Below, piece by piece: positions 9,820 to 32,528 of a DNA stretch of 35,098 nt. The DNA comes from a virus, in IMG/VR virus record IMGVR_UViG_3300049830_000128, positions 1 to 35,098 of that record; one strand, given 5' to 3'. The notes beneath the pieces were generated by a model. It had not been told where the DNA came from. It searched no databases and saw only the letters and a list, made by a program, of their open reading frames with translations. A program made the translations under genes and the position numbers. Within the stretch, counting starts at the first letter, position 1. Every line of letters begins with the position of its first letter.

Positions 9820-11184
9820 TCACAACCACGGGTCTGGCAAGATCAATTCTTCTGGTTGATCAAAAATTTTTACGAGATCGGCTGTTTTACGTTTTAGGGT
9901 ACTTACAATCTTTTGGTCTAATGAATCTGGAAGCGAAACAATACGCACATTTAGAGGCTCTTTTGATCCAATACGATTACACCGTTTTATTGCCTGAGCA
10001 TTGTCGCCGGGTACCCAAGATTGCTCAAGCATCACTAACTGAGATGACGCCGTAAGAGTGATTCCTGTTCCTGCGGCGGCAATGTTGCCAATAAAAACCC
10101 TGCATCGCGGGTTGTTTTGGAACTTATCAATATTTTTCTGCCGCTTTTCAGGTGGAGTACCTCCATAGACAGTGACCGGATTAAACTTCCGGAGAGCATG
10201 TCGTATTCCTTCAACGACATCACGGTGATGTGCAAAGACCACAACTTTTTGATATAAATTCGCATCGAGTTCCTCCTCCAATAACTTGGCCGTATTTTCA
10301 ATTTTAAGAATGCCTGTGTAACGCCGTAAGGTCGCGACCGAATCATAAATGGATTCGAGCTTATCGATTGCTTTCTCCGCGATTGAGCGTTCATCGGCCA
10401 AAATACTCTCAAATTCGGCCATCTTTTCAGCCGAGCGCGTGAATTGAAAAAATCCTGTGTCTTCTAAATTTACTTCGGACGCTTCAACCGTCACTTCTTT
10501 AATGAAAATTTCAGGCAGATCGGGCAATACATTTTCAGTTAAACGCCTGATCATGAATCCGTGTAGTAATTCTTGGAACTTCGGAATCGCTCGCGACTTT
10601 GCGCCCTTAATTACTTGGTGATCTTTAAACGTATAATGTTCGCAAAACTCGTCAACAAAGCTATCGTAACTTAATTTCGTGCGGGCGGTAGCGTATAAGA
10701 TTGGCCACATTTCGGCAGGGTTATTAGGAGATGGAGTGCCTGAGATGAACCACATTCGTTTGCAATGATGAATGATTCCGCCTGTACCGAGAATAGCCTT
10801 GGCCCTATTTGATGTGGTTGATTTTAAGTAATGGGATTCGTCGCAAATGACTAAATCAAAATCTAATTTAAGTCGTTGAAAGTGATCGGCGGCGTATTCG
10901 TAGGAGCAAATAAAACTTTCAGTATTAATGCCTGGTTCCGGCTTATCTGTAAATTTGAGTAGGATTCTAAATTCGCGAGAATCTTTTGACCATTGCTTAA
11001 ATTCGCGAGCCCAATTAACGCGAGCGATTGCGGGGCAGATAACGAGAATCGTTTTTGCACCGATCTTATCTGCGGCTGCAATTGCTTGGGCAGTCTTGCC
11101 AAGCCCCATTGAATCCGCAAGTAAAGCATACGATCGCTTAGCCAAGAACTCACTTCCTTCAACTTGGTAAGGAAATAGTTCCAT
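9820..11184 (-). CDS. SNF2-family DEAD/DEAH helicase
   Basis: A 454-residue superfamily 2 ATPase, compact as in phage SNF2 proteins. Motif I is MGLGKT (26-31), motif Ia lies in VICPAIARVNWAREF, and motif II is CDESH (115-118 DESH). Motif III is ISGTPSPNNP. The C-terminal RecA domain contains VVFAHHRDVVEGI, AAGTGITLTAS and motif VI QAIKRCNRIGS. It would translocate on dsDNA to assist replication or recombination. It starts just 3 bp after the previous stop, indicating an operon. Phages with the DUF2800/DUF2815/PolA set usually carry such a helicase. Confidence 0.92.
   Translation of the reverse strand: MELFPYQVEGSEFLAKRSYALLADSMGLGKTAQAIAAADKIGAKTILVICPAIARVNWAREFKQWSKDSREFRILLKFTDKPEPGINTESFICSYEYAADHFQRLKLDFDLVICDESHYLKSTTSNRAKAILGTGGIIHHCKRMWFISGTPSPNNPAEMWPILYATARTKLSYDSFVDEFCEHYTFKDHQVIKGAKSRAIPKFQELLHGFMIRRLTENVLPDLPEIFIKEVTVEASEVNLEDTGFFQFTRSAEKMAEFESILADERSIAEKAIDKLESIYDSVATLRRYTGILKIENTAKLLEEELDANLYQKVVVFAHHRDVVEGIRHALRKFNPVTVYGGTPPEKRQKNIDKFQNNPRCRVFIGNIAAAGTGITLTASSQLVMLEQSWVPGDNAQAIKRCNRIGSKEPLNVRIVSLPDSLDQKIVSTLKRKTADLVKIFDQPEELILPDPWL
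10799..10809 (+). repeat. Dispersed motif copy (TTGGCCYTATT)
   Basis: TTGGCCCTATT on the + strand within the SNF2 gene, where the minus strand encodes SNRAKA. It lacks the GA extension, so it may be a weak or fortuitous copy. Confidence 0.45.
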
Positions 11185-11187
11185 CGG

Positions 11188-11514
11188 TTAAATCTTCGTG
11201 ATTGCGATTGAAGTATTTTTGCCATTAAATAGCTCCAAAACCGTACTGTCCCCCGAAATAGTCGTGATCGTACAAACCATTTGGTCGGCGTTGTTTTTAG
11301 CCCAATGGCACGTTCCATTTAAAAAGATTGGCGGTGGGACGGTATATTCGGCATAAGTATCGTTTGATCCGAGATCAGACAAATTGACTGCGGTTCCCGC
11401 TTCGTTTCTAATCGCGCCTTCTGAGTACGAAAGAACTTTCGCGGTTCCTGAATGTGTCCAAGTAATGTGAAAACCATGCACAACCATGCTTGCTATCGCG
11501 CGTTCTTTTGTCAT
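11188..11514 (-). CDS. Hypothetical early protein
   Basis: A 108-residue protein in an ATGA overlap with the gene upstream (start at 11514, GAGGATGAAA before it). The sequence is beta-rich, with a central TVPPPIFLNGTCHWAKNNAD and a C-terminal STVLELFNGKNTSIAITKI. It has no signal peptide or membrane segment, and two cysteines. No family was recognised. It is tightly embedded in the helicase operon, three bases before the SNF2 start, so it is expressed with replication genes. Confidence 0.7.
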   Translation of the reverse strand: MTKERAIASMVVHGFHITWTHSGTAKVLSYSEGAIRNEAGTAVNLSDLGSNDTYAEYTVPPPIFLNGTCHWAKNNADQMVCTITTISGDSTVLELFNGKNTSIAITKI

Positions 11515-11717
11515 TTTTCATCCTCTTCGTATTTGATTTTGGTGAGTTTAAGTCCGGTCTTTGCAGCTTTGCGCCTTGTATGCCTATTAGCCAAGAAATG
11601 TCCGGGCTCAAAGATTGGTGTTTTCTTCTTCACGGATTCCATTTCGCTTAGCTGCGGTTCCAAAAGAGTGGTCATTTTTCTCATCATTTTCTTAGCATGG
11701 CCTTTTGCGCTACCCAT
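11511..11717 (-). CDS. Small basic protein
   Basis: A 68-residue, strongly basic protein (MRKMTTLLEPQL, then FLANRHTRRKAAKTGLKLTK) with an acidic tail EEDEK. The ribosome site GGGAGTTAAG precedes ATG 11717. The HTRRKAAK stretch resembles short basic motifs seen in many small phage proteins and could bind nucleic acid. This is inference from charge only. Its stop overlaps the next start by 4 bp. Confidence 0.65.
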   Translation of the reverse strand: MGSAKGHAKKMMRKMTTLLEPQLSEMESVKKKTPIFEPGHFLANRHTRRKAAKTGLKLTKIKYEEDEK

Positions 11718-11780
11718 TCTTAACTCCCTTTGGTTTTGGACAGGTACAAACGAAGATGATGCAATTTGAAGTGTGTTCCA

Positions 11781-11990
11781 TTAGTACTCTGTATATTTCT
11801 CGTAAAGTTTTCGCAACAACTCAAATTCTTTAAACGTCACGACCTCCGCATTGAAGTGCTTATCATAAACGCGGTCAAAGAATCCCCGCATGTAATCATC
11901 ACGCGGCATGTGGATTTCTATTTCTTCTAAATAATGCTCAATCAAGATGCGCCTATTTTCAGCGGGCGTCGGATATTCCGGCTCATTCAA
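11781..11990 (-). CDS. Small acidic helical protein, TTG start
   Basis: A 69-residue protein (NEPEYPTPAENRRILIEHYL, then TFKEFELLRKLYEKYTEY) that is helical and acidic. No ATG is available near the N-terminus. The reading frame opens with TTG at 11990, forming a TTGA overlap with the stop of the upstream gene, which suggests translation by re-initiation. No family was recognised. The same TTGA style of overlap occurs in the small-ORF chain near 15245. Confidence 0.6.
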   Translation of the reverse strand: MNEPEYPTPAENRRILIEHYLEEIEIHMPRDDYMRGFFDRVYDKHFNAEVVTFKEFELLRKLYEKYTEY

Positions 11991-12283
11991 AAGTGTACAA
12001 CCCCCATTTCCTTAAGCTTATTGTAAAGCTTTTGGTGTTTATGTCGAAGGGAATCTATACTCGTCCCCTTCGGGGGTGTTACGATAAAGCCATCGGGTAT
12101 CCCCAAACGACGATCGATATTGAGAACGCCGCCTAAAAACGTCTTTTGAATCTCTTGTTTAAGATTATTGCGACGGTTCCAAAGCGCGCCTCGGTGCGCC
12201 TTTTCCTCATCACAACAAATGATTTCGATTAGTTCTAGTCCCATAAATTTGTAACAAGACCAACCCATACGAGTTTTGATCAC
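11987..12283 (-). CDS. Hypothetical early protein, GTG start
   Basis: A 98-residue protein starting at GTG 12283 with GAGG 8 nt upstream. An ATG two bases earlier is out of frame and hits a stop at once. The sequence begins IKTRMGWSCYKFMGLELIEI, has a CC pair, and continues with a basic helical region (NLKQEIQKTFLGG) and HKHQKLYNKLKEMG. No conserved domain was recognised. It follows a 160-bp gene-free segment that carries one motif copy at 12334, so it may head its own translational block within the leftward operon. Confidence 0.65.
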   Translation of the reverse strand: MIKTRMGWSCYKFMGLELIEIICCDEEKAHRGALWNRRNNLKQEIQKTFLGGVLNIDRRLGIPDGFIVTPPKGTSIDSLRHKHQKLYNKLKEMGVVHF

Positions 12284-17057: not shown

Positions 17058-17157
17058 GTTTAAAATAGACGACATTCTATTTTTTCTTCCTTTTATAATA
17101 GGCTTGGCCCTATTTATTTTCGTTCTCGATTGGGCGTGTGAGATAATGTTTTCGTGA
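17050..17157 (+). CDS. 35-residue membrane peptide overlapping terL
   Basis: 35 codons from ATG 17050. The peptide is almost one hydrophobic helix (ILFFLPFIIGLALFIFVLDW) with a short basic/acidic start and a Cys near the end. It overlaps the preceding ORF by 8 bp, and its TGA overlaps the GTG start of terL (GTGA). The double overlap suggests it is translated and coupled to terL. Function unknown. A second holin-like peptide or a coupling leader are possibilities. Confidence 0.5.
   Translation: MNKFKIDDILFFLPFIIGLALFIFVLDWACEIMFS
17104..17114 (+). repeat. Rightmost dispersed motif copy
   Basis: TTGGCCCTATT followed by TATTTTCG. It lies inside the 35-residue ORF just before terL. No further exact copy was found from here to the right edge. 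Confidence 0.55.
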
Positions 17158-18704
17158 GCGGAATAATCAAAAGTCCTTATAGTCCCGCCGATGAGACGAA
17201 GTTGATGATTCATCTTTGGGATCCCAAAATTAAGCACAATTTGGAAGCGTTCGTTATGGCCGCTTTCCCTTGGGGAAAGGCCGGGACGCCGCTTGAAAAC
17301 TTCAAAGGGCCGCGTGCTTGGCAGCGCGATGAGCTTCAGAAGATCACTCATCACATAGCTGTTCAGCAAAACCGCATTCGCCAAGGCCAAGTGCCCGAAG
17401 TTTATAAAAGCTGTACGACGAGTGGTCGGGGAACCGGGAAGTCAGCACTTGTGGCTTGGTTAAATTTGTGGTTTTTGAGTACGAGGATCGGAGCGACAGC
17501 GATTAACACTGCCAACACTGAGATCCAATTGAAGTCCAGAACATGGGCGGAAGTGGGAAAATGGCACACATTGTCACTAAATTCTCACTGGTTTGAAAAA
17601 AATGCTATGAGCCTAAAACCAGCCGAGTGGTTGGACAAGGAGCTTAAGCGTCAGATTAAAGTCGATACCGGATATTATTATAGCCAAGCCCAACTTTGGG
17701 CGGAGGAGAATCCCGATGCGTTTGCTGGAGTTCATAATCAAACTGGAGTTCTTCTTATTTTCGATGAGGCTTCGGGGATACCGGCTCCTATTTGGAAGGT
17801 TAGCGAAGGGTTCTTCACCGACCCTGTCCCTGACCGCTATTGGTTCGTCTTCTCAAACCCTCGGCGTAATACAGGTCCCTTTTTTGAGTGTTTCCACAAA
17901 AGCCGACAGTTTTGGCCGAATCGCCGTCATATTGATTCGCGGACCGTGGAAGGAACTGACAAGAAAGTTCTAAACGATATTATTTTGCAGCATGGAGAAG
18001 ACAGCGATGAAGCAAGAGTCGAAGTTAAAGGGGAGTTTCCAAGACAAGGAGACAAACAGTTTATCAGTCGAGAAATCGTCGATAAAGCCGTGGAACGAGA
18101 GATTGTGGAGGATCCATACGCACCGTTATGCATGGGCGTCGATCCCGCACGGTATGGCGATGATGCTACCGTTATCCGATGGCGACAGGGCCGAAATGCT
18201 AGAGTCTTACCTCCTACAGTAATGAAGGGTGCGGATAACATGAAGGTCGCGAATGAAGTCGCGCACCTTATCGATAAATTTAATCCCGACGCCGTTTTTA
18301 TCGATGCTGGTAATGGGACGGGGATCATTGATCGTTTGAGAGAGATGGGATACAAATGCCATGAAGTTTGGTTTGGTAGCAAGAGCGATAAGGACGAATA
18401 TTATAACAAGCGCACTGAAATTTGGGCGGATATGCGCGATTGGTTGGGCGGTGCTTGTATTGATGGATCCCCTGATCTCATCGACGATTTGGTTGGCCCT
18501 AACTATAAATTCATGGGCGGCTCGGACAAGCTTATGCTTGAGAGCAAAGAAGAAATGAAAAAGCGGGGAATACATTCACCCGACAATGCGGACGCTCTCG
18601 CTTGTACCTTCGCCATTAAAGTGGCGAGGAAAGATAAACATGCAAGTCGGCATGGACGCCAAAGTAGAATGGCAAAGGATGTAGACTACGACGTTCTAGG
18701 CTGA
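17154..18704 (+). CDS. terL: Terminase large subunit (packaging ATPase/nuclease)
   Basis: A 516-residue motor protein. The GTG start at 17154 overlaps the previous stop as GTGA. The ATPase domain has Walker A SGRGTGKSALVAW (GRGTGKSA at 91-98) and Walker B GVLLIFDEASG (D204, E205). The nuclease domain has MGVDPARYGDD (D330), AVFIDAGNGTG (D384) and SPDNADALACTFA (D477, D480), a complete RNase H-like metal site. It pumps DNA into the prohead through the portal and cuts the concatemer. The family is that of podovirus and BPP-1-like TerL proteins. Confidence 0.95.
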   Translation: MSGIIKSPYSPADETKLMIHLWDPKIKHNLEAFVMAAFPWGKAGTPLENFKGPRAWQRDELQKITHHIAVQQNRIRQGQVPEVYKSCTTSGRGTGKSALVAWLNLWFLSTRIGATAINTANTEIQLKSRTWAEVGKWHTLSLNSHWFEKNAMSLKPAEWLDKELKRQIKVDTGYYYSQAQLWAEENPDAFAGVHNQTGVLLIFDEASGIPAPIWKVSEGFFTDPVPDRYWFVFSNPRRNTGPFFECFHKSRQFWPNRRHIDSRTVEGTDKKVLNDIILQHGEDSDEARVEVKGEFPRQGDKQFISREIVDKAVEREIVEDPYAPLCMGVDPARYGDDATVIRWRQGRNARVLPPTVMKGADNMKVANEVAHLIDKFNPDAVFIDAGNGTGIIDRLREMGYKCHEVWFGSKSDKDEYYNKRTEIWADMRDWLGGACIDGSPDLIDDLVGPNYKFMGGSDKLMLESKEEMKKRGIHSPDNADALACTFAIKVARKDKHASRHGRQSRMAKDVDYDVLG

Positions 18705-18732
18705 TAAAATAGAATACAAAGGAGATTTACCT

Positions 18733-18930
18733 ATGGGAAGTCCTGATACTCCAACTCCGGCACCGCCGCCGATTGTTCCGCTAGAAGATCCAAAAGTTAA
18801 AGCACAGAGACTCGCTGCCGAAAAAGCGCAAATGGCGGCGCAAGGTAAAGCCTCTACGATGCTTACGGGCCCAGGTGGAGCACCAACTTCTCAAGCATCA
18901 ACGGCATCACGCGCTCTCTTAGGTACATAA
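18733..18930 (+). CDS. Small Pro/Ala-rich protein between terL and portal
   Basis: A 65-residue, low-complexity protein (PTPAPPPIVPLEDP, then a helix KAQRLAAEKAQMAAQ, then a Gly/Ala/Ser-rich end). A strong ribosome site AAAGGAG precedes ATG 18733. Short proteins like this stand in the same slot, terL then portal, in many T7/BPP-1-like podoviruses, with unknown role. It is probably disordered apart from one helix. Confidence 0.75.
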   Translation: MGSPDTPTPAPPPIVPLEDPKVKAQRLAAEKAQMAAQGKASTMLTGPGGAPTSQASTASRALLGT

Positions 18931-18934
18931 CTAG

Positions 18935-20575
18935 ATGGATAAAATTGCGAATCAGTCCGAAGGCGAAGTTCAGGAAATTCTGCGCGAGTTTGCCGCTCTC
19001 TATGGAAGTCGCGGGATTTGGGAGATTCACTGGCAAGAAATTGCCGAAAGGATCTTACCGTCAGCCTCTCAATCTTTTCAGGGTAACTTTCGATCACCGG
19101 GAGAAAAACGAACCTTCCAACTTTTCGACAGTACAGCCCAAGTAGCTTTAACAAGATTCGCAGCGATTTTAGATTCATTACTCACTCCTAGGAATCAGAC
19201 ATGGCATTCGCTCATGGTTGATAACGAAGAACTAGCAAAAAATCGTGACGTTCGCATGTACTTTGAGGACGTAAACCGAAAATTATTTAAGTATCGATAT
19301 AACGAACGCGCAAACTTCAGTTCCCAAAACCAACAAAATTATACGTCTCTCGGCGGCTTTGGAACAGGCTGCATGTTTACTGACGAACTTTGGGGCGGCC
19401 CCGGTCTTCGTTATCGCAACATCCATTTGGGTGAAATTTATTTTGCCGAGAATCACCAAGGCGTTGTGGATAAAGCTTATCGTAAATTTAAACTGACTGC
19501 TCGCCAAGCGAAGCAAAAATGGGGCGAGAATTTACCAAGTGAAATTTTAGGCGCGATGCTTACGAACTCAGAGATGGAATACGATTTCCTTCACTGTGTA
19601 AAACCCCGCGAAAAAGATTACGATCCTAATCGAAAAGATTTTAAAGGGATGAAGTATGCAAGTTATTACATCGCCTTCAAAGGAGAGAAGAAATTGTCTG
19701 AGGGTGGTTATCACACTTTCCCTTATGCTATCTCCCGTTACGAGCAAAGCTTGGGCGAAGTTTATGGTCGAAGTCCAGCTATGGATGTACTCCCCGCCGT
19801 CAAAACATTAAACGAACAAAAGAAGACTGCACTTAAAGCGGGTCATCGAATGGTTGATCCTGTTCTTTTGATTCACGATGATGGATCTCTTGATTCGTTT
19901 TCTTTGAAACCGGGTGCCGCAAACTACGGCGGCGTGACCGCAGACGGTCGCCCTCTCGTTCACACATTACCGACAGGCGATTACCGCGTGAGCAAAGAAC
20001 AAATGGAAGATGAGCGCAAACTCATCAATGATTCATTCTTAGTAAACCTATTCCAAGTTTTGACAGAAGCCCCTCAAATGACAGCAACCGAAGTTTTGGA
20101 GAGGACACGAGAGAAGGGTATTCTTCTTGCGCCTACAGTAGGTCGGCAGCAATCGGAGTATTTAGGTCCGCTTATTGAACGGGAAATAGATGTTCTTTCT
20201 ATGCAGAATCTTCTTCCCCCAATGCCCGCAGTTTTGAAAGAAGCTCGGGGCGAATATAAGATTCAATACGATTCTCCGCTTTCAAGATCGCAACGCGCGG
20301 AAGAAGCATCGGGCTTGCAGCGTACCGTTGAAACGGCCCTTCAAGTCGTCCAAATTACCCAAAATCCCGAGCCATTAGATTACTTCGATTGGGATGTGAT
20401 TATGCCAGAAGTGGCTTCAATCCAAGGCGTTCCATTTCGTTGGATGAAAACAGTTGACGCCGTTATGAAGGCGCGACAATCTAGGGCTCAACAGGCCCAA
20501 ATTCAACAAGCAGTTCAAGCAGCGCCCGCGATTTCTGCGGTTGCTAAAGTTGCGGGGCCTCAAAAGGCGGGTTAA
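18935..20575 (+). CDS. Portal / head-to-tail connector protein
   Basis: A 546-residue protein matching the T7-type head-tail connecting family. The start is ATG 18935. Recognisable segments are FDSTAQVALTRFAAILDSLL, TPRNQTWHSLMVDN, the GGFGTGCMFTDELWGG region, YGRSPAMDVLPAVKTLNEQK, and a C-terminal helical, Gln/Ala-rich tail. It forms the dodecameric ring at the capsid vertex through which TerL pumps DNA, and joins head to tail. The gene follows terL as in podoviruses, and its stop overlaps the next start (TAATG). Confidence 0.93.
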   Translation: MDKIANQSEGEVQEILREFAALYGSRGIWEIHWQEIAERILPSASQSFQGNFRSPGEKRTFQLFDSTAQVALTRFAAILDSLLTPRNQTWHSLMVDNEELAKNRDVRMYFEDVNRKLFKYRYNERANFSSQNQQNYTSLGGFGTGCMFTDELWGGPGLRYRNIHLGEIYFAENHQGVVDKAYRKFKLTARQAKQKWGENLPSEILGAMLTNSEMEYDFLHCVKPREKDYDPNRKDFKGMKYASYYIAFKGEKKLSEGGYHTFPYAISRYEQSLGEVYGRSPAMDVLPAVKTLNEQKKTALKAGHRMVDPVLLIHDDGSLDSFSLKPGAANYGGVTADGRPLVHTLPTGDYRVSKEQMEDERKLINDSFLVNLFQVLTEAPQMTATEVLERTREKGILLAPTVGRQQSEYLGPLIEREIDVLSMQNLLPPMPAVLKEARGEYKIQYDSPLSRSQRAEEASGLQRTVETALQVVQITQNPEPLDYFDWDVIMPEVASIQGVPFRWMKTVDAVMKARQSRAQQAQIQQAVQAAPAISAVAKVAGPQKAG

Positions 20576-22050: not shown

Positions 22051-22941
22051 ATGTCAGTGAATATTCCTACATTATTCGTTAGTCAATTCAGCACTAACAT
22101 TCAAGTTCTAGTTCAACAAAAAGGCCAACGTCTAAAACCATCAGTAATGAGCGGTTCACACGTCGGTAAACAAGCTTCACCAGTCGATCAAGTCGGAGCA
22201 ATCCAAGCGAACAAGATCATCACCCGGTTCTCACCTATGAACCGAATCGATGCGGTTCTTGATCGTCGATGGGTTTTCCCTCAAGACTACGATCTTCCAC
22301 AATTGCTTGATAGCTTCGACAAGCTTCGTTTGCTTGTTGATCCTCAGTCTATCTATGTGACCAATGCGATGTACGCAATGGGTCGCGCGCAAGATGACGA
22401 AATCATCGCGGCTTTCCACGGTACTGCAAAGACCGGAGAGCAAGGCGCAACTTCTACTACTTTGCCAGCGGGTCAAATCGTATCGGTTCAACAAGGCGGT
22501 ACTATTTCCGGCTTAACCGTTGCGAAAATGCGCGAAGGTAAACGTATCCTTATGGCCAACGAAGTTGATTTGAGCCAAGACGCTTTGTACTTGGTTGCTA
22601 AAGCCAAGCAAAAGGACAATCTTTTGGCCGAAGCGCAAATCATCTCTACCGACTTCAATGACAAGCCGGTTTTGGTTGAAGGCGAAGTTTCTCGATTCTT
22701 AGGAGTGAACATTCTCCATTCAGAACGCCTCTTAAACGGTACCGATGACCAATCAGGTACTTCAGATGCGATTCCAATGTACGTTAAAAGTGGTATGTAC
22801 TTCGGTGAATGGAGCGCGATCTCTGCTTCTATCTCTATCCGACACGATCTCGAAAGTGAGCCGTTCCAAGCTTACTGTAAGGGAACTTTCGGTGCGACTC
22901 GTTTAGAAGAAAAGAAAATGACAAAAATTTGGTGCCGATAA
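22051..22941 (+). CDS. Major capsid protein
   Basis: A 296-residue protein. A strong ribosome site, AGGAGGG, precedes ATG 22051. The sequence fits the HK97-like capsid family of BPP-1-like podoviruses: VLVQQKGQRLKPSVMSGSHV, the central LDRRWVFPQDYDLPQLLDSF, IYVTNAMYAMGRAQDDEIIA, VSRFLGVNILHSERLL and the C-terminal AISASISIRHDLESEPFQAY. It is flanked by scaffold and cement genes and has a structured leader. It is expected to be the most abundant virion protein. The identification is by pattern and position. Confidence 0.88.
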   Translation: MSVNIPTLFVSQFSTNIQVLVQQKGQRLKPSVMSGSHVGKQASPVDQVGAIQANKIITRFSPMNRIDAVLDRRWVFPQDYDLPQLLDSFDKLRLLVDPQSIYVTNAMYAMGRAQDDEIIAAFHGTAKTGEQGATSTTLPAGQIVSVQQGGTISGLTVAKMREGKRILMANEVDLSQDALYLVAKAKQKDNLLAEAQIISTDFNDKPVLVEGEVSRFLGVNILHSERLLNGTDDQSGTSDAIPMYVKSGMYFGEWSAISASISIRHDLESEPFQAYCKGTFGATRLEEKKMTKIWCR

Positions 22942-23014: not shown

Positions 23015-23416
23015 ATGAGCGTAGTTAATCTAAGTTCTAAACAAATCACAAACAGAGACTCGGTACCTCAGATCATGAGTGACGCGTCTTATGCTAGAGC
23101 GGATCTACAAGAATCAGAAGGTTATATTACCGCTGGTTCTGCGGATTCAATCGGTTCTAAATACAAACTTTGCTCGGTGCCGTCAAACTCGCGCATCAGC
23201 CAAGTGCTTTTGTCATGCGGAGCTGTCACCAGTTCTGCCGCTGATATTGGCGTGTATAAAGACACCGCAGACGGTGGCGCAGTAATCAGCGCAGCTTTCT
23301 TCGGCTCTGCGGTTTCAATGGCGTCGGCTCTTACCAATTCAGACGTAACCAACGAATCAGGAAACTATACGGTAGACCTTCAAGAACTTCCACTTTGGAA
23401 AGCTCTCGGTCTTTAG
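23015..23416 (+). CDS. Bbp16-like capsid cement/decoration protein, ends at an in-frame TAG
   Basis: A 133-residue protein from ATG 23015 (AAAAGGAG upstream) with features of the Bbp16-type capsid cement family: a beta-rich body, YITAGSADSIGSKYKLC, SRISQVLLSCGAVTSSAADI, GVYKDTADGG, and PLWKALGL before the stop. It would trim or stabilise the capsid shell next to the major capsid protein. The stop is TAG at 23414. The frame continues without another stop for 30 more codons to TAA 23507, and those codons resemble the family's usual C-terminal strands. Truncation, read-through or a sequencing error are all possible. Confidence 0.8.
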   Translation: MSVVNLSSKQITNRDSVPQIMSDASYARADLQESEGYITAGSADSIGSKYKLCSVPSNSRISQVLLSCGAVTSSAADIGVYKDTADGGAVISAAFFGSAVSMASALTNSDVTNESGNYTVDLQELPLWKALGL

Positions 23417-23509
23417 GCAGATCCTATGTCAAACTTCGACATTTGCGCTACCCTAACCGCAGCTTCTACAGCTAGTGGTTTGGTTGGTTTAAAAGTTCGT
23501 TTCGCTTAA
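23417..23509 (+). other. Conserved-looking C-terminal extension after the amber codon
   Basis: 30 in-frame codons after TAG 23414-23416, reading ADPMSNFDICATLTAASTAS and GLVGLKVRFA, then TAA TAA. A central FDI.ATLTAA.TA followed by a beta strand is what I expect at the end of full-length Bbp16-like proteins. The same frame and the absence of a gap argue that this was part of the gene. A separate start at ATG 23426 would give a 27-residue peptide but has no ribosome site. Confidence 0.6.
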
Positions 23510-23572: not shown

Positions 23573-23803
23573 ATGGCTACACGAAGATATAAATTATCGC
23601 CCGGCCAAACGGAGTTTCAAGTCATTGAAGAAGCTGGTATCGCTACCGTTTCTAATGTGGTTGAACTTACGATCGATTTGGGCGCAGCTATTACGGACGG
23701 AAACGCTCCGGGCGCAACTCGCTTCATCAAAAAAGAAGAAGCTTTGATGGCGCTAGAAATGTTTGAAAACTGGATTCTTACCCATGATTGGCTAGGTTCA
23801 TAA
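23573..23803 (+). CDS. Small head/tail-region protein
   Basis: A 76-residue protein with AAAAGGAGC before ATG 23573. It starts with RRYKLSPGQTEFQVIEEAGI and ends in a helix (KKEEALMALEMFENWILTHD). Its stop overlaps the next start (TAATG). It lies between cement and fibre genes. A connector or head-completion role is possible, but no family is recognised with confidence. Confidence 0.65.
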   Translation: MATRRYKLSPGQTEFQVIEEAGIATVSNVVELTIDLGAAITDGNAPGATRFIKKEEALMALEMFENWILTHDWLGS

Positions 23804-24114
23804 TGACTAGGGAAAGATCACAGGGACAGCGTCAGTTAGACGCGGTCCTTCTTTCCGCAGGTCCTTACGAACAGGTCACTAACTTGACTGCGGCAGTGGG
23901 GTTTTCGGCAATTCCTTCAAATACCGAAACAGCGGTCATTGTGGTTGAGGGGCAAGATATTCGATGGACTGACGACGGAGTTACAACTCCTACCGCAACC
24001 GTTGGTATGTTGCTCAAAAAAGATTCTACGTTCGTTTATAACGGAGAGATTAAAAACTTTAAAGCGATTGAAGTCGCCGCGAGTGCAAAACTTAACGTGT
24101 CCTACTACACCTAA
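23803..24114 (+). CDS. Beta-rich small structural protein
   Basis: 103 residues from ATG 23803, which overlaps the previous stop. An earlier TTG at 23788 would add five residues and is less likely. The sequence is beta-rich (GPYEQVTNLTAAVGFSAIPS, then TAVIVVEGQDIRWTDDGVTT), ending NFKAIEVAASAKLNVSYYT. Proteins with this pattern appear as small virion proteins next to tail genes in podoviruses. Exact role unknown. Confidence 0.65.
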   Translation: MTRERSQGQRQLDAVLLSAGPYEQVTNLTAAVGFSAIPSNTETAVIVVEGQDIRWTDDGVTTPTATVGMLLKKDSTFVYNGEIKNFKAIEVAASAKLNVSYYT

Positions 24115-24129
24115 TAGGAGGATTTTTAA

Positions 24130-25905
24130 TTGAATATTATTAATCCACCGGGTGATTCGAGTTCAGGAAGCATGGTGATTGGGGGTAGCATCAGTGGTGC
24201 TACCGCCAATTTATTTTTGTACTCTAATCCGGGCGGTAATCTATCTCAAGATGCACAGGCGTCTCGGATAGATGGGGCAGTTTACCAAACAGATATTTCA
24301 GCAAACACATACGCCCAAGGTTCCGATGATAATTTTAACGCCGTTTTACAGGCGGATAATATTGGGCCGTTAGTTACGCCGATACAAATATCGGGTGACG
24401 GAGTTTCGGATATAAATACTCTTGCCGGAAATTGGAATGCGGCGAATCCGAGTAACACCATTTCCGTAATTTCTGGTGGATCTTATGTTTTGAATAACGG
24501 CGACAAAATTGCTTTAACAGGCGGCGGAGTGTCCGGAACCTTTATGGGTTCTTCCGTGAATACAGGAACAGCGCTGATCAATTTACAAGGCATTGGAGAA
24601 TCCTCAACCGGGTTAGATGCGCTAGGTAATCCAGTAAGTGCGATTAATTTTTCGGGGAACATGAGTTCCGTTTTCGGTTCGTCAAAATTTGGTTTAATGA
24701 GTCACGCACATAATACGGTAACTAATGCGTTAGGATTTATTTCGGTAACTCCAGAGGAAGTTAAATTAGTTTCCACCGATAATTCTAGTTACGCAGCGGG
24801 ATTTCAGTTTGATAAAAATCAATCATTTTTGCAATTCGATGGGAACAGCCTCGCGCTTTCGGCATCATACGCGCGAATACAGACGGATAATTTCTTTCGA
24901 GTCAATAGTAGCAGCAATCAAGGGATGATCGAATCCCAAAATGGCGTTTATGTAAAATTAGGCGATTTTGAAGGATTCGTAAATTCATCATTTTTTGCAA
25001 TAGACATCGCTAATCAAACAATTAAGGCGCAAGCGAATAACCAGTTTATTTACCAAGCGGTAAACGGAAGTGCTTATCTAAGTTTAAACCCGGTTAATAA
25101 TTATTATGGTATCGGTGACATAAGTAATGCAAATAGCCGTACTAAAACCGAATGGGATGATGGCACAGGTACCATTCTTAGTACCGCTGGTGTTAGGTTT
25201 AGAGTTCAGAATACAAATGGTGATCTATCACTACAATTAGATCCAAGCGCCGACTACTATGCTGTCGGCGATCTAAGCGGTAAATTCCAAAACACCAAAA
25301 CCGTCTGGGATGATGACGGTGCGGTTATTCGTAGCAGCGTGAACGGTTCATTCGTCATAGAAAGCAATGGCGGGTTTAGATCATTCATTGCGGGTAACGG
25401 AAGCCGACAGGTCATGCTTGGCGACTGTGGATTAAGCAATGGGGTTACGTTCATCCAAATTGATGATCCATCTCAGTTCATCACCCTAAATGCAGCGGTG
25501 GGGCTGACTATTTCGGGTTCAGGAGTAAATTACTTAACGGTAAATGCGGGCGCTGGGTACACAAACATCAATACTGGATTAGTGAACAAACTAGCCGTTC
25601 ACACTTACGGATCAACTATTGTATTAACGGTTGAAGACTATGCGATCGTATTTAATGGAAGCACGGGGGCTTCAACGGTGTCGTTACCGCCAATCGCAAT
25701 AGTCGGTCAGATCATGGAAATCTCAGACGGCGGCAGTATCGCGAGTAGTTCTAACATTACGGTTGATGCGGGAGCGGGCGGGAAGATCATCTCCACATCA
25801 GGAACCGGACAGACCCATGTAAATAATGTGGATGGGCAGTCATTCTCATACAGATGTTTTGATAATAATTCCGGCGCAGGGCCAAGCAATTGGATGGTGG
25901 TGTAA
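24130..25905 (+). CDS. Tail fibre protein 1 (TTG start)
   Basis: 591 residues starting at TTG 24130 with GGAGGATTTTTAA upstream, the strongest start signal available. It begins NIINPPGDSSSGSMVIGGS, sharing its first six residues with the fibre gene at 26343. The body is beta-rich and repetitive. Two related blocks, at about 314-352 (NPVNNYYGIGDIS, then KTEWDDGTGTIL) and 365-400 (DPSADYYAVGDLS, then KTVWDDDGAVIR), are visible. The C-terminus repeats Gly/Ser-rich turns such as NITVDAGAGGKI. Such proteins form trimeric fibres that recognise host receptors. Confidence 0.8.
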   Translation: MNIINPPGDSSSGSMVIGGSISGATANLFLYSNPGGNLSQDAQASRIDGAVYQTDISANTYAQGSDDNFNAVLQADNIGPLVTPIQISGDGVSDINTLAGNWNAANPSNTISVISGGSYVLNNGDKIALTGGGVSGTFMGSSVNTGTALINLQGIGESSTGLDALGNPVSAINFSGNMSSVFGSSKFGLMSHAHNTVTNALGFISVTPEEVKLVSTDNSSYAAGFQFDKNQSFLQFDGNSLALSASYARIQTDNFFRVNSSSNQGMIESQNGVYVKLGDFEGFVNSSFFAIDIANQTIKAQANNQFIYQAVNGSAYLSLNPVNNYYGIGDISNANSRTKTEWDDGTGTILSTAGVRFRVQNTNGDLSLQLDPSADYYAVGDLSGKFQNTKTVWDDDGAVIRSSVNGSFVIESNGGFRSFIAGNGSRQVMLGDCGLSNGVTFIQIDDPSQFITLNAAVGLTISGSGVNYLTVNAGAGYTNINTGLVNKLAVHTYGSTIVLTVEDYAIVFNGSTGASTVSLPPIAIVGQIMEISDGGSIASSSNITVDAGAGGKIISTSGTGQTHVNNVDGQSFSYRCFDNNSGAGPSNWMVV

Positions 25906-26327
25906 TGAGCAGCGTTTCAATAGAAGCATTAAAAGCATCAGTAAAAACGTGTCCAAGATGGGTTAAGATTACAAAACAGTATAGCGACTTTTCTGCCGCA
26001 GCACTTATCAAAGACACTGAAATCTATTCACTTCCGGCGGCCTCTGTGATTCACGCAGTTCAAACATTTTTATTTTCACCTTTTTCCGGGGGGTTAATTG
26101 CTTCATATACAATATCGGTCGGAACATCGGGTAATTTTGTAAAATATCAACCCGCGACGAGTGTTTTTACGGGGGCAAGTTCTCCGCAGCCTACTGCGGT
26201 AATGGGAGTAGAAAGTTTTTCATCAAGCACAAGTATTAGGGCTAAAGCAATTTCAACCGTGGGTAATCTAAATACGGCCACTCAGGGCACGATTATTTTT
26301 TACCTTTTGGTTTCAACATTGGAATAG
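25905..26327 (+). CDS. Fibre-associated protein, ends at TAG in frame with the next fibre
   Basis: 140 residues from ATG 25905 in a TAATG overlap with the previous gene. It is beta-rich (AASVIHAVQTFLFSPFSGGL, then SYTISVGTSGNFVKYQP), possibly a tail-tip or chaperone protein. It ends with TAG. The five codons after that stop are open and run in frame into ATG 26343 of the next fibre, which however has its own GGAGG ribosome site. Read-through would fuse the two. Independent translation is the simpler reading. Confidence 0.65.
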   Translation: MSSVSIEALKASVKTCPRWVKITKQYSDFSAAALIKDTEIYSLPAASVIHAVQTFLFSPFSGGLIASYTISVGTSGNFVKYQPATSVFTGASSPQPTAVMGVESFSSSTSIRAKAISTVGNLNTATQGTIIFYLLVSTLE

Positions 26328-26342
26328 TGGAGGATCGAGATC

Positions 26343-28694
26343 ATGAACATTATTAATCCATCGGGCGGTGCAGGAAGTTTCGTACCTATTTCTGGTGGTA
26401 CGATGACAGGAACGCTCACATTAAATCCTTCATCACAAACAGGGAATAATGATGCGGCTACGATCGGCCAATTAGCTACTTTTGTTTCAGGACAAGCATG
26501 GAAGTCACCCGCCGCGAACGCGGCTTCTTTAGCGAATATAAATATTTCTGCTCCGGGCGCGTCGTTGGATGGTTATACTTTTGTAACAGCGGGCACAGAT
26601 TCTTTTGTAGCAAAGAATCAAACTACTACTTCTGAAAACGGAATTTATACTTGGAATGGCCCCGCGACTCCGGCGACTAGAAGAACGGACGCCAATACTT
26701 CAGGTAAATTAACCGCAGCTACGATAGGTATTATATCGGGTACTCAGGCAGGAAGCGCGTGGACGCAAACAACCGCGAACCCCGTTATTGGTACGGACCC
26801 CGTAGCATTTACTGACGTGGGCAAAATATATTTAGCTGGTTCAGGATTAACTTTAACCGGAAATTCCTTTTCGATCGCTACAGGCGGAATCGTAAACTCA
26901 ATGGTAAATGCGGCAGCGGCCATTGCGTATTCTAAACTAAATTTAACAGGAAATATTTTAAATGCCGATATATCGGCTTCGGCGGCCATAGCTCGCTCAA
27001 AAATAGCGTCCGGAACCGCAAACAGAATTGTTATAAATGATGGCTCGGGTGTAATGGTAGATGCGTCTGCTATTATGGCAAGCAGGGCGCTTCAATCTGA
27101 TGCAAGCGGGATCCCGGTTGCGTCTTCGGTTACTTCGGCAGAACTAGCTTTTGTTTCCGGAGTTACCTCCGCGATACAAACTCAATTTAATACGATCAAC
27201 ACTACTATTTCAGGTCTTCAACCGTTAATTACGGCGGGAACTACTGCGCAGTACTACAGAGGCGACAAATCATTTCAGACTTTAGATACAAGTGTTGTAC
27301 CTGAAAACGGAAACTTATATTTTACAAACGCGAGAGCAAGGAGTGCATTAATTGGAACTTCTCCGATTACTTATAACTCTGGCACAGGAGCTATTGGAAT
27401 TAATACAGCAAGCAGTTCGGTAACGGGAGCATTGACCGCTACTGATTGGACTACTTTTAACGGCAAATTCTCGCTCCCCTCTTTCACAAACAAATCGGTT
27501 TTATTCGCTAACGGAACTACGATCGTTGAAGACACGGCATTTAACTACGATAGTGCGACCGGATTATTAACTTCTAAAGGGCACGCCATAACAGGCACCG
27601 CAGGAGCTGGTAATATTAGTTTTGCGCTTCAGTCTAGTACCCCCGCTACTCCGGGTTCGGGGCTTAAGCTTTATTCTGATAACTCGGGTCGGTTTAACAT
27701 ATTAAATAGCGGCGGGAAAAGCTTGTCATTGGATACGACCGGATTAAGTGCAAGCCGAGCGCAAGTATATCCCGACGCAAACGGCACCTTCGGGCTAGTC
27801 CCGGCAAGTGGTTTTGTAAAATCAAACGGTTCCCTTCTTTCTTCGGTATCGTCGATAGTTGCGTCCACAGATATTTCAGGACTTCTACCGGCTGCAAACG
27901 GAGGAACAAATTCAAATTCTTCTGCGGCTACGGGAATTGCCCACGTTACAGCGGGCGCATGGGCATACTCGGCGGTGGACTTAGCAAGCGCGGATGTGAC
28001 AGGAGTACTACCATTAGCTAACGGGGGAAGTGCGTCTCCCAATTCTTCGACAAGAATCACCGACGATTATTGTGGCGGAACAGTTGCTCAGGTTTGGACT
28101 ACATCAGTTGCGGGGACGGGGGCTTCCGCAGGGCAAACATCGACAAGCGCAGCTTTGGGCTGGAGGCCGGGTATCGCTCAGTATGGAACAGGTACGACGG
28201 CAGCGGGACGCTCGGGCTTTGGTCAATCTGCGAGTACGATAGCCCTTGGAAACGGGGTTGGTTTTACCTATGAAGTTGATATTTCTATCCCCGTCTTATC
28301 GACAGGGGTGGATAGATTTGGACTAACGGCGGGATTCAATAACTCTTTTGGTCTACTATTGGGAACTAACTACGCAGGATTTTCGTATGTCGATAACGTA
28401 AACGGAGGAGCATGGGTTTGCACAACAACCTCAACTTCCGTATCTACAACAACCAATACGGGTACGACGGTAGCCATCAACACATGGTACAGACTCACGA
28501 TTACGGTAAATTCATCGGCAAGCTCGGTTACATTTTCCATTGACGGGACAACGGTCGCCACTCACACCACAAATATCCCTGTCGGCGCGCCAATTAACAC
28601 CATTACGAACATCATGAAAACGGTTGGCACAACGGCGAGGGTCATGAACATAGATTATTCATCATTGTTGGTACAAATGGCGACGGCGAGATAA
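26343..28694 (+). CDS. Tail fibre protein 2 with C-terminal beta-sandwich
   Basis: 783 residues from ATG 26343 (GGAGGATCGAG upstream). The N-terminus NIINPSGG is shared with the 24130 gene, implying a common attachment segment. Then come the phage fibre repeats GGTMTGTLTLNPSSQTGNND, ATIGQLATFVSG, and long stretches of Ala/Ser/Thr repeats such as AAIAYSKLNLTG. The last about 145 residues (GVGFTYEVDISIPVLSTGVD, then WYRLTITVNSSASSVTFSID) look like a concanavalin/laminin-G-type lectin domain, as expected for receptor or glycan binding. It is one of the main host-range determinants by context. Confidence 0.85.
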   Translation: MNIINPSGGAGSFVPISGGTMTGTLTLNPSSQTGNNDAATIGQLATFVSGQAWKSPAANAASLANINISAPGASLDGYTFVTAGTDSFVAKNQTTTSENGIYTWNGPATPATRRTDANTSGKLTAATIGIISGTQAGSAWTQTTANPVIGTDPVAFTDVGKIYLAGSGLTLTGNSFSIATGGIVNSMVNAAAAIAYSKLNLTGNILNADISASAAIARSKIASGTANRIVINDGSGVMVDASAIMASRALQSDASGIPVASSVTSAELAFVSGVTSAIQTQFNTINTTISGLQPLITAGTTAQYYRGDKSFQTLDTSVVPENGNLYFTNARARSALIGTSPITYNSGTGAIGINTASSSVTGALTATDWTTFNGKFSLPSFTNKSVLFANGTTIVEDTAFNYDSATGLLTSKGHAITGTAGAGNISFALQSSTPATPGSGLKLYSDNSGRFNILNSGGKSLSLDTTGLSASRAQVYPDANGTFGLVPASGFVKSNGSLLSSVSSIVASTDISGLLPAANGGTNSNSSAATGIAHVTAGAWAYSAVDLASADVTGVLPLANGGSASPNSSTRITDDYCGGTVAQVWTTSVAGTGASAGQTSTSAALGWRPGIAQYGTGTTAAGRSGFGQSASTIALGNGVGFTYEVDISIPVLSTGVDRFGLTAGFNNSFGLLLGTNYAGFSYVDNVNGGAWVCTTTSTSVSTTTNTGTTVAINTWYRLTITVNSSASSVTFSIDGTTVATHTTNIPVGAPINTITNIMKTVGTTARVMNIDYSSLLVQMATAR

Positions 28695-29684: not shown

Positions 29685-32528
29685 GTGCCTAAAGTCGCGA
29701 CGATACAAGGTAATTTTACGGGGGGAGAAATCAGTAGCCTACTTTTTGGGCGTACTGATGCCGACCGATATAAAATGGGCCTTGATACTTGTTTAAACCA
29801 GACTGTTACTTTGCAGGGAGGTCTTACAAGACGCCCCGGAACTAAGTTTGTTGCTGCCACAAAAACTCCTTCAGATAAAGCGCGGTTGATTCCGTTTATC
29901 TTTTCAAGCACTCAGGCGTATATGCTTGAGTTCGGGGATTTCTATATTCGCTTTTATGCGAATCATGGGCAAATTCAATTAAGTGGTTCTCCTTATGAGA
30001 TTGCTTCTCCTTACGCGATTGCCGATGTGGGCGACATTTCATTCACCCAAAGTGATGACGTTCTTTATTTAGTTCACGGAAACTATCCACCCCAGAAATT
30101 ACTACGTTTCGGAAATACCAATTGGATTTTATCCCAAATAGACATTCAAGACGGCCCTTATGGGAATATCACTTTTGCGACAGTTACCAGTTCAGATACA
30201 ACTAGAACTTATTTGACTGCATCTAAAGCAATCACAGGCGTAGTCGATGGAACAGGGGCTCCGACCCCTGCTGGTAATATTCAAATAACCTGTACCGCCC
30301 ACGGGTTTTCAACCGGCGATCGGGTGATGATTAGAGACGTGCAGGGTTCTACCGCAGCAAACGGTTACTTAATTACCATCACAGTAGCGAACGCCAACTT
30401 GTTTTATTTTCCGGGTACCATTGGAGCGGGAACTTACGTTTCCGGCGGATCAGTAAATAAATTTGTTGGGTTTGATGTAGGCTCTCAAAACAACCAACTT
30501 ATTCTAAGTGCGGGCTCCGGTGACATAACGGTAACCGTAGATTCTCAAAGTATTTCGGGCGCAGTAAATAACGGTTCAGGTTTGATCCGAATTACAACGA
30601 CCGCAAATCATTTTTTCGTAACAGGGAATCGGGTTGTCATAACGAGCGTAGCGGGAACCGTAGAAGCTAACGGATCTTGGATTATCACAAAAATTTCGGA
30701 CACGCAGTTTGATCTTCAGGGATCCGTATTCGTTAACCCGTATACGTCAGGGGGCCAAGTTCGCATCTCTACTTTTGCAGCGGGCGATATTGGCAGACCA
30801 ATTAGATTTCGCGATAACGTCACAGCGACGACAGCTAATCCATCCGGATATAATTGGGTTTGGGTTTCTATCATCACTTACATCAATGAATATACTGTCA
30901 CCGCACGGGTTCGTTCCAAAGAAGGAATTACCCAATTAACCGGGCTCCCATTCCGTTTGGGAACTTGGTCAGCAACAACCGGCTATCCTACACGGGCGGT
31001 ATTTCATGAAGATCGTCTTTGCATGTCGGGGGCGAGCGGCACCCCGCAACGGATCGATATGAGTAATTCGGGTGATTATGAAAACTTTGCACCTTCTGAT
31101 CAAGATGGAAATATTCCGGCTAATAGGGCCGTGGCTGCCACTCTCTCAAGCAACGAAGTAAACCAAATTCAGTGGATGACTTCCGATGAACGCGGTCTTC
31201 CGATCGGTACTACATCGGGTGAATGGGTTGTACGACCTTCAACCCTTTCAGAAGCCATCACTCCCACAAACGTATCAGCTAAAAAAGTTTCAGCCTTTGG
31301 TAGTTCAAACAAAAATGCGGTACTCGTTGGTAAGTCTTCAATCTACGTTCAAGCGGGAACTAAAAAATTAAGAGAGCTTTCTTACTTCTACAACATTGAT
31401 GGATTCCGCTCTACAGACGTGACCCTGCTTGCCGAGCACATCACGGGCGAAGGGATCGTTACTCATCCGACACTTCAAAAGACACCGCAACCGATCGTTT
31501 GGAACGCTCGTTCTGACGGCGCACTTCTTGGAATGACGTTTGATCGCGATTTAGATAATTTAAAAGCAGGATGGCATCGTCATGAACTAGGCGGCTTCGG
31601 CGACAACGATAAAGGAATACCGGTTGTCGAAAGTGTGGCCGTAATCCCTAATCAAGATGGCACAGTGGATGACCTTTGGTTAATTGTAAAACGATACATC
31701 AACGGTCAAACAGTTCGGTACGTTGAATATTTAACAAAGATTTTTGAATCATTTGACAAACAACAAGACGCGTACTTTGTGGATTGTGGATCAAGTTATG
31801 ATGCACCTAAAACGATCACCACAATCACTAAAGGAATAGCGACCACGGTAACGGCAGCGGCGCACGGGTTTTCAAACGGAGATGAAGTAGTGATCAGAGA
31901 CGTTAGTGGGATGACGGAAGTAAACGGAAATGTTTATAAGATTAGTAACGTCTTTACGAACTCTTTTGAAATTAATGATCTAAGCGGGAACCCTATTGAT
32001 TCTACAAATTTTAATAATTTTGTTTTCCCAAGCGGCACAGTAAGAAAGCGCGTATCTACAATCACGGGATTAACTTGGTTAGAGGGCGAAACAGTGTCAG
32101 TTCTTGGAGATGGGGCCGTGCAACCCGATCAAGTGGTCACAGGGGGCGCAATCACGTTAGCCTTCAAAGCAGCCACAGTTCAAGTAGGCTATGGTTACAA
32201 CTCAGATATTAAACTCCTCAGAATAGATGCGGGAGCCGCCAACGGGACTGCGGTTGGAAAGTTCCGCCGTATTCATGAAGTGGGTTTGATGCTTCAAAGA
32301 TCACTCGGCATCCAAATGGGAATGAGCTTTGACAAGCTCGATATTATCCCGTTTAGAACGACCACTGACCTAATGACTCATGCACCGGCCCTATTCACAG
32401 GGATCATTAAGAATCGGATCGAAGCGACTTACGACACCGAAAACCAAATTTGCATCAGACAGAATCAGCCCTTGCCCCTCACTCTTTTGGCCGTAATGCC
32501 AATGATGGAAGTGCAGGACCAAGGATGA
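29685..32528 (+). CDS. Tail tubular protein B-like nozzle protein (T7 gp12)
   Basis: 947 residues starting at GTG 29685, longer than T7 gp12. The N-terminus TIQGNFTGGEISSLLFGRTD, DRYKMGLDTCLNQTVTLQGG, and RRPGTKFVA is diagnostic of the gp12/stabilisation family. Extra length comes from three related beta modules at about 197-257, 299-360 and 720-790, each with TAHGFSTGDRV or a variant (ANHFFVTGNRV, AAHGFSNGDEV). These recall FCCH-type insertions. It forms the tail nozzle through which DNA is ejected. Confidence 0.9.
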   Translation: MPKVATIQGNFTGGEISSLLFGRTDADRYKMGLDTCLNQTVTLQGGLTRRPGTKFVAATKTPSDKARLIPFIFSSTQAYMLEFGDFYIRFYANHGQIQLSGSPYEIASPYAIADVGDISFTQSDDVLYLVHGNYPPQKLLRFGNTNWILSQIDIQDGPYGNITFATVTSSDTTRTYLTASKAITGVVDGTGAPTPAGNIQITCTAHGFSTGDRVMIRDVQGSTAANGYLITITVANANLFYFPGTIGAGTYVSGGSVNKFVGFDVGSQNNQLILSAGSGDITVTVDSQSISGAVNNGSGLIRITTTANHFFVTGNRVVITSVAGTVEANGSWIITKISDTQFDLQGSVFVNPYTSGGQVRISTFAAGDIGRPIRFRDNVTATTANPSGYNWVWVSIITYINEYTVTARVRSKEGITQLTGLPFRLGTWSATTGYPTRAVFHEDRLCMSGASGTPQRIDMSNSGDYENFAPSDQDGNIPANRAVAATLSSNEVNQIQWMTSDERGLPIGTTSGEWVVRPSTLSEAITPTNVSAKKVSAFGSSNKNAVLVGKSSIYVQAGTKKLRELSYFYNIDGFRSTDVTLLAEHITGEGIVTHPTLQKTPQPIVWNARSDGALLGMTFDRDLDNLKAGWHRHELGGFGDNDKGIPVVESVAVIPNQDGTVDDLWLIVKRYINGQTVRYVEYLTKIFESFDKQQDAYFVDCGSSYDAPKTITTITKGIATTVTAAAHGFSNGDEVVIRDVSGMTEVNGNVYKISNVFTNSFEINDLSGNPIDSTNFNNFVFPSGTVRKRVSTITGLTWLEGETVSVLGDGAVQPDQVVTGGAITLAFKAATVQVGYGYNSDIKLLRIDAGAANGTAVGKFRRIHEVGLMLQRSLGIQMGMSFDKLDIIPFRTTTDLMTHAPALFTGIIKNRIEATYDTENQICIRQNQPLPLTLLAVMPMMEVQDQG

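Follow-up and report, generated by a model that had tools for sequence, protein, structure and literature searches.

The A1 readthrough capsid protein of phage Q-beta arises at a conserved stop codon; the shorter product serves as the functional coat, and the tail adds a further domain. The capsid cement of Ralstonia phage GP4 forms an Ig-like trimer on the outside of the head, with 540 copies per head (PMC9698820). Phage phAss-1, which recodes TAG, has this codon in 41 ORFs and carries three suppressor tRNA genes (PMC10607447). Here we describe a putative capsid cement gene that is interrupted by one in-frame TAG. It lies in an IMG/VR virus record of 35,098 bases, the whole of which was analyzed and is referred to as the window. 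The record is classed as a linear piece and is a fragment. Its minus strand carries DNA-polymerase-type replication genes and its plus strand a block of head and tail genes; an integrase is also encoded. The features discussed below are as follows.

17154-18704, plus strand: terminase large subunit, intact, part of the 17154..20575 block
18935-20575, plus strand: portal/head-tail connector, intact, part of the 17154..20575 block
22051..22941, plus strand: major capsid protein (Pfam PF19821 Phage_capsid_2, PHROG 3437)
23015..23413, plus strand: N-terminal 133 codons of the putative capsid cement gene, matching family profile positions 1-135, with the Shine-Dalgarno sequence AAAAGGAG upstream
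23414..23416, plus strand: in-frame TAG, private to this contig, in a column that holds a sense codon in 56/56 relatives
23417..23506, plus strand: conserved 30-codon C-terminus, matching profile positions 137-165 and holding the final two beta strands in the model
23507..23509, plus strand: TAA where the family normally stops, with another TAA directly after it; relatives end 0-4 codons away

A cement-type gene beside the major capsid gene

The first-pass annotation had called the interrupted frame a capsid cement gene, an identification that is borne out by gene position and modelled fold. The gene starts at 23015, next to the end of the PF19821 major capsid gene at 22941, in a neighborhood that is kept in relatives. 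It is present once in the window and has a good ribosome site (AAAAGGAG). Searches of Pfam and PHROG returned no family match for the window protein, although five of its relatives weakly matched PHROG 8455 or 486 ("virion structural protein"), and a profile search of the PDB with the cement family likewise returned no match. We modelled the full-length protein from 19 sequences, leaving out the row from an annotated phage record. The resulting model (mean pLDDT 77, moderate confidence) is beta-rich; it has eight strands at least three residues long, and the final two (140-147 and 155-163) lie past the TAG. Its best matches among solved structures in Foldseek were cement chains, namely those of Pam1 (7eel_H, E 5.7e-6), KHP30 (7dn2_1, E 1.7e-3) and GP4 (8h89_J, TM 0.62/0.65), each with a probability of 1.00. 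Together, position and predicted fold give good support to a capsid cement assignment. The product, of ~164 residues, would be a trimeric-type capsid cement (decoration) protein with an Ig-like/beta-sandwich fold, located on the outside of the head shell. The gene adds a cement gene to a well-spread, poorly annotated family, which has no matching Pfam model and some of whose members PHROGs reach weakly.

The same annotation had likened the protein's end to that of Bbp16-like proteins, with a terminal strand pair of the type D..TLTAA. We rejected membership in the Bbp16 sequence family, as the hhalign probability against Bbp16 of Bordetella phage BPP-1 was 0.24% over 12 columns. Bbp16 itself ends otherwise; the ending in question belongs to the window protein's own family.

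Several neighboring genes also merit description. The gene at 23788-24114, 3' of the cement gene, encodes a small protein with few relatives (one match, in locus L018) that may serve as another head decoration or joining protein. The products of 24130-25905 and 26343-28694 are both tail-fibre-like and have the N-terminal motif MNIINP.G in common, perhaps as a shared anchor. Between them, the 145-codon gene at 25890-26327 ends in a TAG that is in frame with 26343-28694, five codons 5' of the latter's ATG. Readthrough there would give a fusion of the two, but the arrangement is probably due to chance, since 26343-28694 has its own ribosome site. At 29685-32528 lies a gene for a 947-residue tail/stabilisation-like protein, three stretches of which match Pfam PF16190 (E1_FCCH); that name comes from ubiquitin-activating enzymes, and the match is likely a fold-level resemblance only.

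A private stop codon ahead of a conserved C-terminus

Translation of 23015-23509 yielded 133 codons, TAG at 23414-23416, 30 codons (ADPMSNFDICATLTAASTASGLVGLKVRFA), TAA and then another TAA, confirming the arrangement first reported after the capsid gene. The TAG lies 31 codons ahead of the cement gene's normal end; NFDICATLTAAS is an example of a peptide within the tail that follows it. We found an initial 21 relatives beside related capsid genes, in all of which the TAG column is read through and the protein ends close to the TAA of the window, a few codons off at most. Further viral contigs and ten bacterial genomes brought the set to 56 distinct relatives, one phage record included. No stop codon and no protein end was found at the TAG column in any of the 56, where the residue is Ser in 26, Thr in 18, Ala in 10 and Asp and Val in one each.

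A family profile built without the window matched the core at positions 1-135 (E 1.3e-50) and, separately, the tail at positions 137-165 (E 5.4e-7), in register with the core. With this match of its own, the open tail is not due to chance. Two of the eight invariant columns of alignment A1, D136 and D142, lie in the tail. Its codon usage is that of coding sequence, similar to the core (0.07 versus 0.12) and far better than that of the other two frames (-0.48 and -0.30). When tail identity to relatives was compared with core identity, the window ranked 25th of 39 sequences, a middle rank that gives no sign of decay or extra drift. On these alignments, the 30-codon extension is the normal C-terminus of the cement family, as the annotation had proposed. 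Alignment had also been put forward as a check, with homologues that all ended at the TAG counting against the proposal; among the 56 members of the protein's own family we found none that did. This outcome speaks for a TAG that is private to this contig, not for one that is leaky.

One of the bacterial loci, L067 (a deltaproteobacterial MAG contig), has two copies of the cement family close together past its capsid gene, at 10898-11420 and 11623-12130; some relatives may therefore make two cement types.

We also looked for internal stops elsewhere. As first reported, no other long gene of the window has an internal TAG, which holds for every window gene having relatives among the fetched loci; no broken gene was seen among the other sense-strand genes with relatives. 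Internal stops on the antisense strand were set aside, being shadow frames of intact genes. In related loci, 0 of 439 gene matches (duplicate contigs counted) contained an internal stop, so internal stops are uncommon in this group. With the window's other sense-strand genes that have relatives unbroken as well, the TAG stands alone. One such case is to be expected when a reader picks it out while searching for unusual features.

Readings of the interrupted gene

We also modelled the 133-residue form, truncating the same relatives at the corresponding position. Mean pLDDT was 68, and one strand of at least three residues was left, compared with 77 and eight at full length. AlphaFold does not measure stability, but the result is consistent with a tail that belongs to the predicted fold and is no optional add-on, and in the model the 133-residue form looks broken and unfoldable.

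The first-pass annotation had favored a leaky amber codon, in which two capsid forms result, as in Q-beta-type readthrough capsids. Some ribosomes would read the TAG to make a minor form of 164 residues beside a major one of 133. An intact, in-frame and undecayed tail is compatible with this idea, as a leaky stop would maintain selection on it. However, the TAG is conserved in 0/56 relatives, and the tail belongs to the modelled fold's core. Since the short form looks unfoldable, it is hard to see why a cement needed in hundreds of copies should be made mainly in that form. Neither the next base nor the downstream RNA fold gave a readthrough signal at the TAG: a C as the next base is the known leaky context, and here it is G, while the z values of the RNA fold are ordinary (-0.4 to -1.7). 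No suppressor tRNA was found in the window. We consequently regard a leaky amber as very unlikely. If the TAG were real and its natural host read it with a fixed frequency, which is similarly improbable, this lineage alone would have a short and a long cement, or would make full cement only in amber-suppressing hosts. Leaky reading, if true, would be a rare case of capsid decoration under stop-codon control; a single stop codon that is private to one metagenomic contig, however, is not evidence of readthrough.

Efficient reading of the TAG by an amber suppressor tRNA, supplied by the host or by a part of the phage genome off the contig, would yield a single 164-residue cement. The window contains no tRNA genes, but as the contig is a fragment such a tRNA could lie beyond it. 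TAG is also the rarest stop in the window, ending 4 of the 46 listed ORFs. Close relatives of the capsid protein were absent from bacterial genomes in a one-sequence search; a capsid alignment search recovered ten distant loci, from which the host is not identifiable. Against this, there is only one in-frame TAG among ~10,300 codons of the other genes plus the cement gene, three other window genes end in TAG, and TAG is the cement gene's own natural stop in four relatives (L018, L048, L049 and L062). TAG-recoding phages such as phAss-1 differ in having many TAG-bearing ORFs. Global recoding, which the annotation had also thought unlikely, can be rejected on the same counts, and suppression of this one codon is unlikely, to a degree that we would call highly improbable.

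We also considered a split gene, in which reinitiation at ATG 23426 would supply a 27-residue C-terminal peptide to join the 133-residue piece. This ATG lies 10 bases past the TAG and has an AGG 8 bases before it, such that weak reinitiation over 23426-23506 could occur. Yet it lacks a proper Shine-Dalgarno sequence, a split gene is without precedent in the cement family, and the same methionine is present in the intact relatives L010 and L004, indicating that it is inherited and not an adaptation. We find this reading scarcely credible.

The cement gene very probably carries a lone nonsense codon that either arose recently as a genuine mutation in the phage or prophage sampled or reflects a mistake in the consensus assembly. 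Such an origin, which the annotation had kept as its fallback, is the best-supported reading: it predicts that the stop is solitary, that the tail is free of decay and that no relative shares the stop, and all three were seen (TAG in 0/56). The private TAG and the conserved tail rest on sequence comparison, the fold and its loss on truncation on modelling. The TAG may be of recent origin, although the closest relative, only ~50% identical in protein, is too distant to date it; an IMG/VR search for near-identical sequence spanning the TAG, in which any codon was allowed at that site, gave no match and hence no sister strain for comparison. Two points weigh against a mutation or error: consensus errors have a low per-base rate, and a structural gene cut short ought not to persist. 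The tail's lack of decay could therefore also indicate that it continues to be translated. Were the codon real and amber not suppressed by the host, the sole product would be a 133-residue fragment missing the last two strands; this fragment would probably fail to fold into working cement, leaving an allele that is defective or attenuated.

Comparison with known capsid proteins

Capsid cement genes of this type are already known, and the window gene appears to be a new member. One of the closest known counterparts is in the uncultured phage Manatee Spring podovirus ct8d5349 (MW202898.1), whose protein UOF83097.1 is 40% identical over its full length, including the tail, and is encoded in the same gene order next to a major capsid protein with 59% identity. 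It differs in having a sense codon at the TAG column and is an intact protein of 166 residues. The cements of GP4 (gp1, 8h89), Pam1 (7eel) and KHP30 (7dn2) are similar in length and resemble the modelled beta-sandwich/Ig-like fold, but have no detectable sequence relation to the window protein. Like Bbp16 of BPP-1, the window protein is small, beta-rich and encoded beside the major capsid gene; there is, however, no profile match to Bbp16, and the capsid proteins do not match either (hhalign probability 0.3%). With Q-beta A1, the window gene shares an in-frame stop followed by an open tail, but its stop is private to one contig (0/56 relatives) and its tail appears to be part of the ancestral fold.
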